Source: Paracoccaceae bacterium (GTDB lineage Bacteria; Pseudomonadota; Alphaproteobacteria; Rhodobacterales; Rhodobacteraceae). Taken from it: a stretch of 64,000 nucleotides of DNA. The stretch lies in NCBI GenBank assembly GCA_027486345.1, contig JAIXPH010000061.1, positions 1-64,000 of the forward strand, given 5' to 3'. The notes beneath the pieces are model-generated. The model did no database searches. It was not told the origin of the DNA and saw only the letters and a list, made by a program, of their open reading frames with translations. The translations under genes and the position numbers were made by a program. Positions 3,608 through 58,789 of this stretch are shown piece after piece. Each line of letters starts with the position of its first letter. Position 1 is the first letter of the stretch.

Positions 3608-4051
3608 TCACCGCCGCACAGCCATTGCGCGCGCCAGCATCGCGCGGTCGCCTTCGTTGTCCAGCATCTGCAGGCCGTCCGTCGCCGACATCCACACTGC
3701 CGTATGCCCCGCCTCCAGCGGCGGACCAAGGCGCAGGACAGGACGGGCAAGGTAGATGGAACACACCTTTTCGGCCCATTTGTCGTATTCCGGCATATAG
3801 GTGAACCGCCGGTAAACCCCCAGTTTCCGGGCAATTTCCACCCGCCAGCCGGTTTCCTCGTAAATCTCGCGGTGCAGGGCGGGCAGCGGGTGTTCGCCCG
3901 GATCAATGCCGCCGCCGGGCAGTTGATATTCCGGCACGGGCTCCATTTGATGCGTGGTCAACAGCGCGTCGCCGTCGAGGATCACCGCATAGGCGCCGGG
4001 CCGCAGGCGATAGCGTTGACCGCTCTTGACCGCTTCACCATACCGTCTCAT
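3608..4051 (-). CDS. Nudix hydrolase
   Basis: The 147-residue protein is a single Nudix domain. The Nudix box is complete: G-G-G-I-D-P-G-E followed by R-E-I-Y-E-E-T-G-W (GX5EX7REUXEEXGU), so it should hydrolyse a nucleoside diphosphate linked to another moiety using Mg or Mn; the substrate cannot be read from the sequence. I chose the start at 4051 (MRRYGEAVKS) because the Nudix fold starts soon after; a longer frame to 4144 would run over the divergent hslO start and adds basic, low-quality sequence. It converges on the PP2C gene with a 4-base gap and shares a 91-base divergent promoter region with hslO. Confidence 0.88.
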   Translation of the reverse strand: MRRYGEAVKSGQRYRLRPGAYAVILDGDALLTTHQMEPVPEYQLPGGGIDPGEHPLPALHREIYEETGWRVEIARKLGVYRRFTYMPEYDKWAEKVCSIYLARPVLRLGPPLEAGHTAVWMSATDGLQMLDNEGDRAMLARAMAVRR

Positions 4052-4142
4052 ACCGCTGCCCTCACTTTGCCGCCCCTTGGTCCGCCGGTTGCCCCGCCTA
4101 TATAGTCGCGGTATGCCAAGATGGGCACAATCAGGAAACCCC

Positions 4143-5141
4143 ATGACTTTCGGTTCTCAACTCGCCTGGGACGATACCGTCCTGCCGTTTCAGCTTGACC
4201 GGTCCGACATCCGTGGCCGGGTGGCGCGTCTGGATGGCGTGCTGGAACAGGTGCTGAAGCAGCACGCCTATCCGCCGCAGATCGAAGCGCTGGTCGCTGA
4301 GGCCGCGCTTTTGACCGCGCTGATCGGTCAGACCATCAAACTGCGCTGGAAACTGTCCTTGCAGGTGCGGGGCAAGGGTCCGGCGCGGCTGATCGCGACG
4401 GATTACTACGGCCCGACCGAGGATGGCCAACCCGCGCGCATCCGCGCCTATGCCAGCTTTGACAAGGATCGTCTGGATGCGGATGCCGATCCCTTCAGCC
4501 AGATCGGCGAAGGCTATCTGGCCGTGCTGATCGATCAGGGCGAGGGCAATGTGCCCTATTCCGGCATCACCCCCATCGCGGGCGGGTCGCTGTCGTCTTG
4601 CGCGGAAACCTATTTCGCGCAGTCCGAACAATTGCCCACGCGCTTTGCCGTCAGCTTTGGCCGCAGCCAGACCCCCGGCGAACAGCCGCATTGGCGTGCA
4701 GGTGGCGTGATGTTGCAGCACATGCCGCGCGTCGGCATGTCCGTCGCGGCTGCCGAAGGCTCGGGTGAGGGCGGGTTGCTGACCCATGCCGACATCCTTG
4801 GCGGGGAAGAGGGAGAAAACTGGATTCGTGCCAACGCCCTGTTGGACACGGTCGAAGAGATCGAGTTGATCGGCCCGTCGGTGCATCCGACGGATCTGTT
4901 GGTGCGTCTCTTCCACGAAGAAGACCCGCGTGTGTTCGATGCCCAGCCGGTGCGCTTTGGCTGTTCCTGTTCCGAAGACAAGGTGCGCAATTCCCTGTCG
5001 ATCTATTCGGCCAAGGACATTGCCTATATGACCACGCCGCAAGGCACGGTGACGGCGGATTGCCAGTTCTGCGGCGCGCATTACGTGCTGGACCCCAAGA
5101 CCGTGGGGTTTGAGGCGGTGAAAGCCCCGAATGCGGAATGA
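4143..5141 (+). CDS. hslO: Redox-regulated chaperone Hsp33
   Basis: Hsp33 is a cytoplasmic holdase activated by oxidation of a C-terminal zinc centre. The 332-residue product has the family fold start (DDTVLPFQLD) and all four zinc cysteines: C-S-C near residue 277 and C-Q-F-C near residue 314. The ATG at 4143 is used because similarity to the family begins at once; an upstream in-frame start at 4026 would add 39 arginine-rich residues and overlap the divergent Nudix gene. It overlaps the following Nudix gene by 11 bases, so hslO, the CoA-pyrophosphatase-like gene and cca are likely cotranscribed and partly translationally coupled. Confidence 0.95.
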   Translation: MTFGSQLAWDDTVLPFQLDRSDIRGRVARLDGVLEQVLKQHAYPPQIEALVAEAALLTALIGQTIKLRWKLSLQVRGKGPARLIATDYYGPTEDGQPARIRAYASFDKDRLDADADPFSQIGEGYLAVLIDQGEGNVPYSGITPIAGGSLSSCAETYFAQSEQLPTRFAVSFGRSQTPGEQPHWRAGGVMLQHMPRVGMSVAAAEGSGEGGLLTHADILGGEEGENWIRANALLDTVEEIELIGPSVHPTDLLVRLFHEEDPRVFDAQPVRFGCSCSEDKVRNSLSIYSAKDIAYMTTPQGTVTADCQFCGAHYVLDPKTVGFEAVKAPNAE

Positions 5142-5724
5142 CGAAGACAGGCTGCGCGCGGCACTGACCCGCCCCGCGCGGCCTTCGTCGGATTTTGACC
5201 TGAACCCTGCGATTGCCCTGCCCCCCGGCCGCGTCTTGCGCCCGGCGGCGGTGCTGGTGCCGGTCTGGCTGCGCCCGGATGGCGCGCGGCTGATCCTGAC
5301 CAAGCGCGCCTCGCACCTGAAACACCACCCCGGTCAGATCGCTTTTCCCGGTGGCAAGGTGGATGCCGGGGATGATGGTCCGGTGGGGGCGGCCCTGCGT
5401 GAGGCGCGGGAGGAAATCGGCCTTTCCGCCGATTTAGTGACTGTTTTGGGCACGCTGCCGACCCATGAAACCGTCACAGGTTTCACCGTGACCCCGGTTC
5501 TGGCGCTGGTGCGCGGTGCGTTTACAGCGGTGCCAGAGGCGGGTGAGGTCGAAGAGGCCTTCACCGTCCCGCTGTCGCATGTGCTGGACCCCGCACGCTA
5601 TCACATCGAACGGCGGCGGTGGCGGGGGGAGTGGCGGCGCTATTACACCGTGCCTTACGGTCCCTATTACATCTGGGGCGCGACCGCCCGCATTCTGCGC
5701 GGCTTGGCGGACCGGGTGGCGTGA
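5131..5724 (+). CDS. CoA pyrophosphatase-like Nudix hydrolase
   Basis: The 197-residue product carries a UPF0035-type N-terminal extension before a Nudix box: F-P-G-G-K-V-D-A-G-D followed by A-L-R-E-A-R-E-E-I-G-L. The preceding L-T-K-R-A-S-x-L-x-x-H-x-G-Q-I-A segment is the hallmark of the NudL/CoA diphosphatase subgroup, which cleaves CoA and derivatives to 3',5'-ADP and phosphopantetheine. The start overlaps the hslO end by 11 bases, and its TGA overlaps the cca ATG by one base. Function is assigned by family; activity on CoA is inferred. Confidence 0.88.
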   Translation: MRNDEDRLRAALTRPARPSSDFDLNPAIALPPGRVLRPAAVLVPVWLRPDGARLILTKRASHLKHHPGQIAFPGGKVDAGDDGPVGAALREAREEIGLSADLVTVLGTLPTHETVTGFTVTPVLALVRGAFTAVPEAGEVEEAFTVPLSHVLDPARYHIERRRWRGEWRRYYTVPYGPYYIWGATARILRGLADRVA

Positions 5725-55524: not shown

Positions 55525-55812
55525 ATGTCGAAACCGATGACCAAGACCCAACTCGTCGCCGCCTTGGCCGAACAAATGGGTTCGGACAAGAAGGTGGCCG
55601 GCGCCGCGCTGGACGCGATTGCCGCGGTCGTGGCCCGTGAAGTGGCCGCCGGTGGCGCCGTCACCCTGCCGGGTCTGGGCAAGGTCGTCTGCCGCGCCCG
55701 TCCCGAGCGTCAGGTCCGTAACCCGGCAACCGGCGAAACCGTGACCAAGGCCGCGGACAAGCAGGTCAAGTTCTCGATCGCCAAGGCGCTGAAAGACAGC
55801 GTCAACGCCTGA
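55525..55812 (+). CDS. HU/IHF-family DNA-binding protein
   Basis: The 95-residue protein has the HU fold: helices M-T-K-T-Q-L-V-A-A-L-A-E and D-A-I-A-A-V-V, then L-P-G-L-G-K, and the beta-arm region R-A-R-P-E-R-Q-V-R-N-P-A-T-G with the conserved R-N-P-x-T-G tip near residue 66. A short Lys-Ala-rich tail follows. It should bend and compact DNA as a homodimer. It has an AGGAAGGGA site and a leader of about 130 bases, and a terminator follows. It is one of several HU-like paralogues usual in these genomes, not obviously linked to neighbours. Confidence 0.93.
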   Translation: MSKPMTKTQLVAALAEQMGSDKKVAGAALDAIAAVVAREVAAGGAVTLPGLGKVVCRARPERQVRNPATGETVTKAADKQVKFSIAKALKDSVNA

Positions 55813-56035: not shown

Positions 56036-56803
56036 ATGTTGTCGCGTGAAAAACTTGCCACCCTGCTGGAAGGCCGGACCTTCAGCACCCTGATCCTTGC
56101 CATCATCATCTTCAACGCCGCCCTGATGGGGATGGAGACGTCTCCATCCCTCATGGCGCGGTTCGGCGGGGTGATCGATTTTCTGGATCAGCTTTGCCTG
56201 ATCATCTTTGTCATCGAGTTGGTCGCCAAACTCTACGCCCACGGGTTGCGCTTTTTCCGGTCGGGCTGGAACGTGTTTGACCTGATCATCATTGGCATCG
56301 CGCTGGTGCCTGCCGCGCATGGGCTGTCGGTCTTGCGGGCGCTGCGCGTGCTGCGGGTGATGCGCGTGATCTCCGTCGCGCCCAGTCTGCGGCGTGTGGT
56401 CGAAGGCTTCATCACCGCGCTGCCGGGGATGGGGTCGGTGTTCCTGCTCATGGCGATGATCTTCTATGTCGCCGCCGTGATGGCGACCCAGCTTTACGGG
56501 CCGGATTTCCCGGAAAAGTTCGGCACGCTGACCGCCTCGGCGCTGACGTTGTTTCAGGTCATGACGCTGGAAGGCTGGGCCGGGGATGTGGTGCGCCCGG
56601 TGATGGAGGTGCATCCCTATGCCTGGGCGTTCTTCCTGCCCTTCATCCTGATCACCACCTTTGCCGTGGTCAACCTGCTGGTCGGTCTGATCGTGAACTC
56701 GATGCAAGCCGCCGCCGAGGCCGACACCAAGGCCGCCGAAGAGGATCACTTCAAGAAGATCATCGCGCGGCTTGAGGCGATCGAGCAGCGCTTGCAGAAG
56801 TAA
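56036..56803 (+). CDS. Voltage-gated cation channel (BacNaV-type), selectivity filter TLEGWAG
   Basis: The 255-residue protein is a single six-span voltage-gated channel subunit that should form tetramers in the inner membrane. S1-S3 occupy about residues 17-92, the S4 voltage sensor near residues 97-121 has arginines every third residue (R-A-L-R-V-L-R-V-M-R), and S5-pore-S6 follow. The filter reads T-L-E-G-W-A-G at 177-183 with Glu179; well-studied Na-selective relatives read T-L-E-S-W-x-x. A C-terminal helix with E-D-H-F-K-K-I-I-A-R-L-E-A-I-E-Q-R heptads should be the tetrameric coiled coil. It converges on dxs with an 18-base gap. Confidence 0.92.
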   Translation: MLSREKLATLLEGRTFSTLILAIIIFNAALMGMETSPSLMARFGGVIDFLDQLCLIIFVIELVAKLYAHGLRFFRSGWNVFDLIIIGIALVPAAHGLSVLRALRVLRVMRVISVAPSLRRVVEGFITALPGMGSVFLLMAMIFYVAAVMATQLYGPDFPEKFGTLTASALTLFQVMTLEGWAGDVVRPVMEVHPYAWAFFLPFILITTFAVVNLLVGLIVNSMQAAAEADTKAAEEDHFKKIIARLEAIEQRLQK

Positions 56804-56821: not shown

Positions 56822-58735
56822 TCAGGCCCGCCGCCCCACCACGGCGACGTTCAAGGTTTCCAGAACCTTGGCCTCGATCTGCGCGGCGTCCATGCCTGCC
56901 ACCTGATACATCTTTTCCGGGCTGGCCTGATCAATGAAGATATCGGGCAGGACCATGCTGCGGAATTTCAAGCCGTGGTCAAAGACGCCCTCATCGGCCA
57001 GAAGCTGCGCGACATGGCTGCCAAAGCCGCCCACGGCGCCCTCTTCGACGGTGATCAGCGCCTCATGGTGCCGCGCTGCGTTCAGGATCAGGTCGCGGTC
57101 CAAGGGCTTGGCAAAGCGCGCGTCGATGACGGTGGGGGTCAGGCCCCGGCCTGACAGCGCCTCGGCGGCTTTCAGGACTTCGGACAAGCGGGTGCCAAAG
57201 GACAGGATGGCCACCCGGGCGCCTTCGCGGATCACGCGGCCTTTGCCGATCTCCAGCACCTGACCACGGGCGGGCATGTCGCAGCCCACGCCCTCGCCCC
57301 GCGGATAGCGGAAGGCGATGGGGCCGTCGTCATGAACGGCGGCAGTGGCGACCATGTGCATCAGTTCCGCCTCATCCGCTGCGGCCATGACGACGATGCC
57401 GGGCAGGTTGGCTAGGAAGGCGACGTCGAACGATCCGGCATGGGTCGCGCCATCGGCCCCCACCAACCCCGCGCGGTCGATGGCAAAGCGGACGGGCAGG
57501 CGCTGGATCGCCACATCATGCACCACCTGATCGTACCCTCGTTGCAGGAAGGTCGAATAGATCGCGCAGAAAGGGCGCATCCCCCCGGCGGCCAACCCAG
57601 CGGCAAAGGTCACGGCATGTTGTTCGGCGATGCCCACATCAAAGCAGCGCTTGGGGAAGCGGTCGGCAAACAAGTTCAGCCCCGTGCCATCCGGCATGGC
57701 GGCGGTCACGGCGACGATGCGGGGGTCAACCTCTGCCTCGGCAATCAGGCCTTGGGCGAAGACCTTGGTATAGCTGGGGGCGTTGGATTTCGCCTTGGCC
57801 TGCACGCCGGTCAGAACGTCAAATTTCGCCGTGGCATGGCCCTTGTCGGCGGCGGCTTCGGCGGGGGCGTAGCCTTTGCCCTTTTTCGTCAGGACATGGA
57901 TCAGCATCGGCCCCGTCGCCCGCGCCTTGGCGGTGCGCAGCACGGGGAGGAGTTGGTCCAGATCATGCCCGTCGATAGGCCCGACGTAGCTGAACCCCAA
58001 CTCCTCGAATAATGTCCCGCCCACGGCCATGCCTTTCAGCATTTCCTTGGCCCGCCGCGCGCCTTCTTGGAACGGTCCGGGCAGCAGGCTGACGGCCCCC
58101 TTGGCGGCTTGTTTCAGGTCTTGGAACGGGGCTTCGGCATAAAGCCGCGAGAGATAGGACGACAGCGCCCCCACCGGCGGGGCGATGGACATTTCATTGT
58201 CGTTCAGGATGACAAAGAGGCGCTTTTTCAGGTGGCCCGCATTGTTCATCGCCTCGAACGCCATGCCCGCCGACATGGAGCCGTCACCGATCACCGCAAT
58301 CGCATCGCCCGGATCGGCGCCCAGATCGCGCGCGGCGGCAAAGCCCAAGGCGGCAGAGATCGAGGTGGAGGAATGCGCCGCGCCGAACGGATCATAGGGG
58401 CTTTCCGACCGCTTGGTGAAGCCCGACAGCCCGCCTTCGGTCCGCAGGGTGCGGATGCGGTCGCGGCGTCCGGTCAGGATTTTGTGGGGGTAGCATTGGT
58501 GGCCGACATCCCAGATCAGCTTGTCGCGCGGGGTGTCGAAGACGGCGTGAATTGCCACCGTCAGTTCCACCACGCCCAGACCTGCGCCCAAGTGGCCGCC
58601 CGTCACCGACACCGCGCTGATCGTCTCGGCGCGCAATTCATCCGCCACCTGCCGCAATTCGCGGTCTGACAGGGATTTCAGGTCGGCGGGGGTGGTCACG
58701 CGGTCCAGCAGCGGGGTCTTGGGGCGGTCGGTCAT
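56822..58735 (-). CDS. dxs: 1-deoxy-D-xylulose-5-phosphate synthase
   Basis: The 637-residue TPP enzyme joins pyruvate and glyceraldehyde 3-phosphate in the first step of the MEP isoprenoid pathway. It has the transketolase-like features: G-H-L-G-A-G-L-G near residue 47, W-D-V-G-H-Q-C-Y near residue 74, the TPP motif [16 protein letters not shown] near residue 148 and the late [12 protein letters not shown] near residue 425. Start 58735 ([10 protein letters not shown]) is used. It lies 54 bases after ispA and is the last gene of the unit that begins at petP. Confidence 0.96.
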
Positions 58736-58789
58736 GCGGCCCTCCATGGGCAAAACTGGGGGCAAGGGTAGGGGGCAATCACCGGAACA

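Follow-up and report, generated by a model that had tools for sequence, protein, structure and literature searches.

We found that the pore class of a one-domain voltage-gated channel differs between species at one orthologous chromosomal place in a genus of Rhodobacteraceae, and that two members of this genus, G016 and G018, join glycine-type voltage sensors to sodium-type pores. Recombination that exchanged the pore segment appears to be the likelier cause of the conflict between the sensor and pore trees. The channel taken as the starting point lies in a stretch of 64,000 nucleotides (contig JAIXPH010000061.1), hereafter referred to as the window, and its features are as follows:

56036..56803, + strand: complete one-domain voltage-gated channel gene, NavMs/NavAb-like, 255 amino acids (open reading frame from ATG; Pfam; solved relatives; model)
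56036..56425, + strand: voltage sensor S1-S4 with the S4-S5 linker, residues 1-130 (alignment with NavAb, NavMs and NaChBac; model helices)
56324..56377, + strand: S4, with R101, R104, R107 and R110 at every third residue (invariant alignment columns)
56435..56701, + strand: pore S5-P1-filter-P2-S6, residues 134-222 (tree unlike that of the sensor)
56516..56518, + strand: Lys161, equivalent to NavAb W159 (Trp in 48/48 TLESWSM rows of the family)
56543..56545, + strand: Leu170, equivalent to NavAb Y168 (Tyr in 48/48 TLESWSM rows of the family)
56564..56584, + strand: selectivity filter TLEGWAG, residues 177-183 (Gly180 equivalent to NavAb S178, Gly183 to NavAb M181)
56702..56803, + strand: short C-terminal helical tail, residues 223-255, plus stop codon (alignment; model)
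56822..58765, - strand: dxs-like gene, convergent with the channel and a marker of the orthologous locus (open reading frame)

The product of the last gene is, judging by its sequence, presumably a 1-deoxyxylulose-5-phosphate synthase (Dxs)-like protein. Upstream of the channel lies a small gene (window positions 55525-55812) whose product we take to resemble HU-type DNA-binding proteins; since it adjoins the channel in only 3 of the 14 genus loci, it is probably unrelated to it.

The window channel shows the domain (Pfam Ion_trans, E 8.7e-43), the fold and the arginine-repeat S4 of one-domain Ion_trans channels. Among the best 60 of 140 solved-chain matches, NavMs ranks first (E 2.7e-81), followed by the human four-domain chain Cav3.3 (E 1.5e-67), whose score of 230.9 bits is the sum of four stretches, the best single one reaching 83.7 bits, and then by NavAb (5e-67, 229 bits). 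Identity by BLAST amounts to 53% with NavMs over 238 columns, 45% with NavAb over 218 and 40% with NaChBac over 255. An AlphaFold2 model built from 34 sequences has a mean pLDDT of 79 and a pTM of 0.56 (pLDDT spans 56 to 79 across the five models), and a Foldseek search of the PDB places NavMs at the top (6sxc, E 4.6e-17). The channel is thus nearest to NavMs/NavAb among solved one-domain channels, as a canonical NavAb-like BacNav should be, and resembles both in the gapless alignment of filter and P2, the S4 pattern and the fold; it differs from them in that Gly180 replaces the Ser at position 4 of the filter (TLESW), and in that Lys161, Leu170 and Gly183 stand where the TLESWSM channels have Trp, Tyr and Met. 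In a quick tree made without an AnclNav reference, its Rhodobacteraceae group (support 99) falls in a 30-row set with NavMs (86), and NavAb is found in a different open fork. The genome from which the window comes has one homologue of the channel.

Translation of the open reading frame agrees with the initial annotation in reading TLEGWAG, in which Gly180 is the fourth residue and Gly183 the last. The filter is not a chance variant, as the same string occurs in three more species of the genus (G006, G013 and G014). Compared with G006, the window channel has a dN/dS of 0.067 over the whole gene and 0.040 over the pore; compared with G014, the values are 0.097 and 0.056. These low values point to purifying selection on a gene that is not decaying. 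Together with the absence of internal stops in the 14 genus matches, they rule out an artefact or a pseudogene.

As for the distribution of such filters, a homologue was detected at E up to 0.001 in 14 of the 19 genomes of the genus, and 12 of these 14 carry glycine at position 4: six read TLEGWAD, two TMEGWAD and four TLEGWAG, the remaining two being the TLESWSM channels of G016 and G018. Across the family, a match of some kind, in part distant, is present in 272 of 394 genomes. The 29 further family loci that score best comprise 27 TLESWSM, one TLEGWAD (L023 of G259) and one that is unreadable (L040, the one such case among the 43 genus and further family loci). TLESWSM is likewise the usual filter of the named Rhodobacteraceae loci, where, among the matches listed by a scan seeded with the peptides LFQ[VI]MT[LM]E and NA[VAI][LI][LM]G[LM]ET, it is present in 78 of 80; of the other two among these matches, L062 reads TLEGWAD and comes from a record labelled as a MAG of Pseudorhodobacter antarcticus, and L099 is unreadable. 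A strict DNA pattern (FQxMTxEGW) was matched in 2 of the 394 family genomes, that of the window and G259. At class level a looser pattern was matched in 8 of 289 genomes, and at phylum level a version admitting D or E at position 4 as well was matched in 5 of 349.

In the class, 78 of 289 genomes gave a channel match at E up to 1e-30, at 85 places. We read 83 of these loci, 70 of which show T-x-E/D-x-W; the 13 without a readable motif were left out of the counts, although at least two of them (L242 and L243) read MDGW and thus have the glycine too. Serine occupies position 4 in 49 of the 70 filters (with Met at position 7 in 47, Thr in one and Val in one), glycine in 18 and another residue in three. 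Glycine at position 4 is scattered among alphaproteobacterial relatives. Position 7 of the 18 glycine filters is Asp in seven and Glu in five, with one each of Asn, Gln, Gly, Phe, Ala and Ser; as most of them keep an acid there, TLEGWAG is a sub-variant that lacks it. A tree built without the P-loop, from which 17 of the 83 loci were excluded (the 13 without a motif, and L184, L185, L204 and L266 by choice), implies at least 15 changes of the position-4 state, a rough figure in view of the many weak forks and the chance that AnclNavs are among the glycine rows.

Small residues at position 7 next to Gly4 are also found in TLDGWSG (L207, G537), TMDGWAA (L257, G675) and TLDGWAS (L261, G456). Several loci harbor more than one channel gene. 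Those of L181, L182 and L183 (G721, G778 and G757) each contain two BacNav open reading frames with the filters TMEGWPD and TTEGWPT, one of which per locus was used in the tree, and their products might form mixed tetramers. Contig G653:C198 bears adjoining channel genes at 3976-4707 (L250) and 4916-5566 (L254) with the unlike filters TLEGWAE and TFDDWIE, and neighbouring pairs of TLESWSM channels occur in two genomes of one genus (G593:C71:46985-48651 and G686:C53:7212-8869).

The filter residues do not vary alone. Our main set of Rhodobacteraceae, 62 rows of which 14 have glycine and 48 serine, was made up of the 14 genus loci, 28 of the 29 further family loci and 20 of the 80 named loci, namely L062 and 19 picked by hand. 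Six columns show no overlap between the two classes: glycine and serine rows have, respectively, R/K/Q and W at 161, L and Y at 170, G and S at 180, A and S at 182, D or G and M at 183, and V and I at 185. Among other families and reference channels, Trp at 161 is present in 46 of 49 rows with Ser4 and in 2 of 21 with Gly4, and the Ser4 rows that lack it (NaChBac, L229 and L237) are exactly those that lack Met at position 7. The link between 161 and 183 is suggestive only, as just three supported pairs lie on independent branches (p 0.25). In NavAb, Met181 is suggested to stabilise the filter, a role that the authors leave unclarified in the accessible portion of PMC12919392. The covariation raises the possibility that the sodium filter of NavAb is held by W159 and M181 acting as a coupled pair.

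We determined that the genetic context of the channel is conserved in the genus, where dxs is found within 1.5 kb in all 14 loci and is directly convergent with the channel in G016 and G018. In other family loci it lies this close in 4 of 29, and among the matches listed it is found up to 4 kb away in 20 of 80 named loci. At this shared place G016 is 94% identical to G003, G004 and G011 in the sensor and 69% in the pore, and G018 is 94-95% identical to G007 and G009 in the sensor and 73% in the pore. Nucleotide identity falls near codons 124-136. The C-terminal tail of G016 is 48-52% identical to those of its sensor partners, and that of G018 90%.

Trees of the sensor (residues 4-130) and the pore (residues 134-222) disagree accordingly. 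The sensor tree groups G016 with G003, G004, G011 and G012 (100/98) and G018 with G007 and G009 (93/94), while the pore tree unites the 14 glycine rows (100/99) and leaves G016 and G018 outside. For AU tests we used subsets of the 62 rows, 38 rows with G259 and 37 rows in each of two control runs, and clades that were named after the filters and trees had been seen. With all sites included, the pore data reject a union of G016 and its sensor partners (p-AU 8e-5), the corresponding union for G018 (0.0014) and the joint eight-row sensor clade (0.004); in turn, sensor data reject the glycine rows as one clade, at 8e-8 for the 13 rows without G259 and 4e-52 with it. The tree of dxs places G016 with G003, G004, G011 and G012 and G018 with G007, G009 and G005 (both 100/100), matching the sensor tree for G016 and G018. 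It differs from that tree for G001, G005, G013 and the G000 group, and base composition is unusual in 10 of its 18 rows, which makes dxs an imperfect guide to the species. For rpoB, the genome from which the window comes gave no match.

An assembly chimera does not account for the TLESWSM filters, since G018 has its channel with dxs adjoining in a 3.9 Mb contig of a three-contig genome, and in the 40-contig genome of G016 dxs also lies beside the channel. A recent plasmid or phage origin is not supported, as 39 of 39 plasmid records are below 60% identity and the one phage record is at 33%, in collections where the nearest relatives may be absent.

The main competitor of recombination, which we rate only a little below even, is a history in which selected convergent amino-acid changes, or the survival of an ancestral TLESWSM pore in two lineages, produced the conflict. 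The all-site rejections speak against it, and third codon positions of the pore speak for it, as they leave the sensor groupings standing (p-AU 0.17, 0.30 and 0.20), although with just 89 sites these tests are weak and have little power. It also gains from the placement of the genus together with L062 as one clade, which pore data reject with G259 (p-AU 0.0025) and allow without it (0.365). As this rejection vanishes, an origin outside the genus is not required for the sodium-type pores of G016 and G018; without G259, moreover, G018 branches beside the glycine pores (87/93). From the contrast between all-site rejection and third-position non-rejection we consider recombination likely and convergence open.

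Permutation tests on informative sites (20000 permutations; trios were picked after seeing the data and values are uncorrected) bear on the same question. With all sites, the count was 0 of 20000 in each of three G016 trios and 0, 8, 0 and 0 of 20000 in four G018 trios; a control with 60 random TLESWSM trios had 3 values below 0.01 and no value below 0.001, a contrast that counts against a history without recombination. With third positions alone, the G016 trios gave 250, 113 and 56 of 20000, and the third positions of the G016 pore are nearest to the TLESWSM row L049 (69%, compared with 58% to G003 and G004), both again in favor of exchange. The third positions of the G018 pore, on the contrary, are nearest to its sensor partner G007 (75%), and its trios gave 242 of 20000 with G009/L017 and 17453, 4278 and 6245 in the other three, so the test fails in three of four. 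Identity at conserved fourfold sites between G016 and G003 is similar in sensor (67%) and pore (69%), which likewise favors convergence or retention. We therefore read G016 as a probable case of recombination and G018 as one of short conversion tracts or selected replacement. The direction of transfer is open, as setting G003 or G009 as the mosaic instead scores likewise (0 at all sites; 112 or 23 at third positions). G013, which shares TLEGWAG with the window gene, is 89% identical to it at the DNA level in the pore, 72-73% in the sensor and 81% in dxs, and gave 74 of 20000 at all sites and 1234 at third positions; G259 was mixed (2 and 1168 at all sites, 1549 and 237 at third positions).

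As regards what such a pore would conduct, the published TLEGW filters are, in the accessible portions of the literature, those of CavMr, of NavAb mutants and of eukaryotic one-domain channels. Searches of literature text, with figures and most subscription papers outside their range, returned no related paper for TLEGWAG/TLEGWAD-type strings and no title reporting such a filter survey or a BacNav pore exchange. CavMr, which its authors assign, in the accessible text, to the AnclNav group, has the filter TLEGWVD and has Thr-Leu-Glu-Gly-Trp at positions 1-5 in common with the window channel. According to the accessible portion of PMC7041947 it requires Gly4, as G4S lowers PCa/PNa to 11.9, and can dispense with Asp7, as D7M keeps a PCa/PNa of 144. 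The initial annotation had pointed to this likeness and proposed a channel that passes calcium or is weakly selective, both of which stand as possibilities. Its further suggestion that Gly instead of Asp at position 7 may reduce calcium preference does not follow from CavMr, where the same D7M result shows that it need not. The window channel departs from CavMr in having Gly183 at position 7, where the latter has an acid, and in the segment between filter and S6, which in CavMr forms an extended, cysteine-bearing disulfide loop (accessible portion of PMC10120453). In the window channel it counts 23 residues and no Cys, as many residues as in NavAb, NaChBac and NavMs, CavMr being compared here by its description.

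In the NavAb backbone, the accessible portion of PMC12919392 reports a PCa/PNa below 0.01 and a PLi/PNa of 2.18 for S178G, and a PCa/PNa of 0.36 for M181A and of 0.47, not significantly more, for S178G-M181A, the latter two in an N49K/T206A background. The double mutant has a PLi/PNa of 0.99 and values below 0.05 for K+ and Cs+. Hence, Gly4 by itself does not imply calcium, as might be read into the initial annotation, and in NavAb it is the loss of the position-7 Met that admits calcium. The S178G-M181A mutant (LivAb series) resembles the window channel in placing small residues at positions 4 and 7 of a canonical backbone; the window channel differs in being natural, in having Gly at 7 and Ala at 6, and in the linked changes at 161, 170 and 185. 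When the filters of CavMr and NavAb were swapped, no currents could be detected (accessible portion of PMC7041947), a caution that neither precedent may transfer.

With these precedents, we give about even credence to the window gene encoding a functional, homotetrameric cation channel that is gated by voltage, has a backbone of the NavMs/NavAb kind and discriminates weakly between Na+ and Ca2+. Observed are the family, the filter, the purifying selection and the all-site conflict of sensor and pore trees; we infer the tetramer, the gating, the selectivity, the packing role of 161, 170 and 183, and recombination. In this scheme, S4 would sense depolarisation and the channel would open; Gly180 would remove the Ser178-type hydroxyl at the filter mouth, and Gly183, Lys161 and Leu170 would together remove the Met-Trp-Tyr set that seems to hold the filter in its sodium-selective shape. 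Na+ and Ca2+ would then both enter, at a PCa/PNa predicted around 0.1 to 10, making it neither a strict sodium nor a strict calcium channel. The forecast of mixed permeation follows from small residues at positions 4 and 7 on a canonical backbone, for which S178G-M181A is the closest case. Certain analogies weigh against weak selectivity: NaChBac is sodium selective (accessible portion of PMC8002053) without Met at position 7 or Trp at 161, NavAb S178G alone excludes calcium, and CavMr shows that one Glu ring with Gly4 can give high calcium selectivity.

That the channel is instead truly calcium selective, with Gly4 and co-adapted pore residues making a native Cav on a sodium-channel backbone as in CavMr, we hold to be doubtful. 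It is favored by the 'beacon' classification, in which glycine at this position of one-domain channels predicts calcium selectivity (accessible portion of PMC10120453), by the tolerance of CavMr to D7M, and by the prevalence of D/E at position 7 among Gly4 relatives (12/18); the further differences in glycine pores also make a lone NavAb mutation a poor model. Set against this are the sodium and lithium selectivity that NavAb S178G retains, the lack in the window filter of the position-7 acid that 8 of the other 11 glycine-type genus members have, and the lack of the loop described for CavMr. As the classification predicts calcium and the NavAb double mutant is permeable to sodium and calcium, selectivity is not readable from sequence.

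We consider it quite unlikely that the channel is sodium selective, perhaps with raised lithium permeability, and that the filter change reflects drift or a tuning of conductance or drug block. Its backbone is indeed nearest to NavMs/NavAb, S178G combines raised lithium permeability with low calcium, and NaChBac (TLESWAS), which like the window channel has Leu at 170, Ala at 182 and Val at 185 and differs in keeping Ser at position 4, demonstrates that Met at 7 is not needed for sodium selectivity. Yet the same change turns up in scattered lineages, mostly alongside an acid at position 7, and comes with a linked set of pore positions, neither of which is expected under drift; the dN/dS of the pore is also low.

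For the window channel itself, then, two published accounts forecast opposite selectivity, and a mixed Na+/Ca2+ conductance remains our preferred reading. Glycine filters are seen here on NavMs-like backbones in one genus and in scattered Alphaproteobacteria, some of the latter possibly being AnclNavs. Near-matched natural pairs such as G003/G016, with 94% identity between the sensors and 69% between the pores, contrast chiefly in pore class and C-terminal tail, so the choice between Na+ and Ca2+ by a filter of four-fold Glu is directly testable with natural genes. A broader and rather improbable generalisation, put forward tentatively, is that bacteria switch the ion of a channel through exchange of the S5-S6 pore while the gene keeps its chromosomal position, with W159-M181 of NavAb as the sodium lock. 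If true, one orthologous channel would be a sodium channel in some species of a genus and a calcium-admitting one in others.
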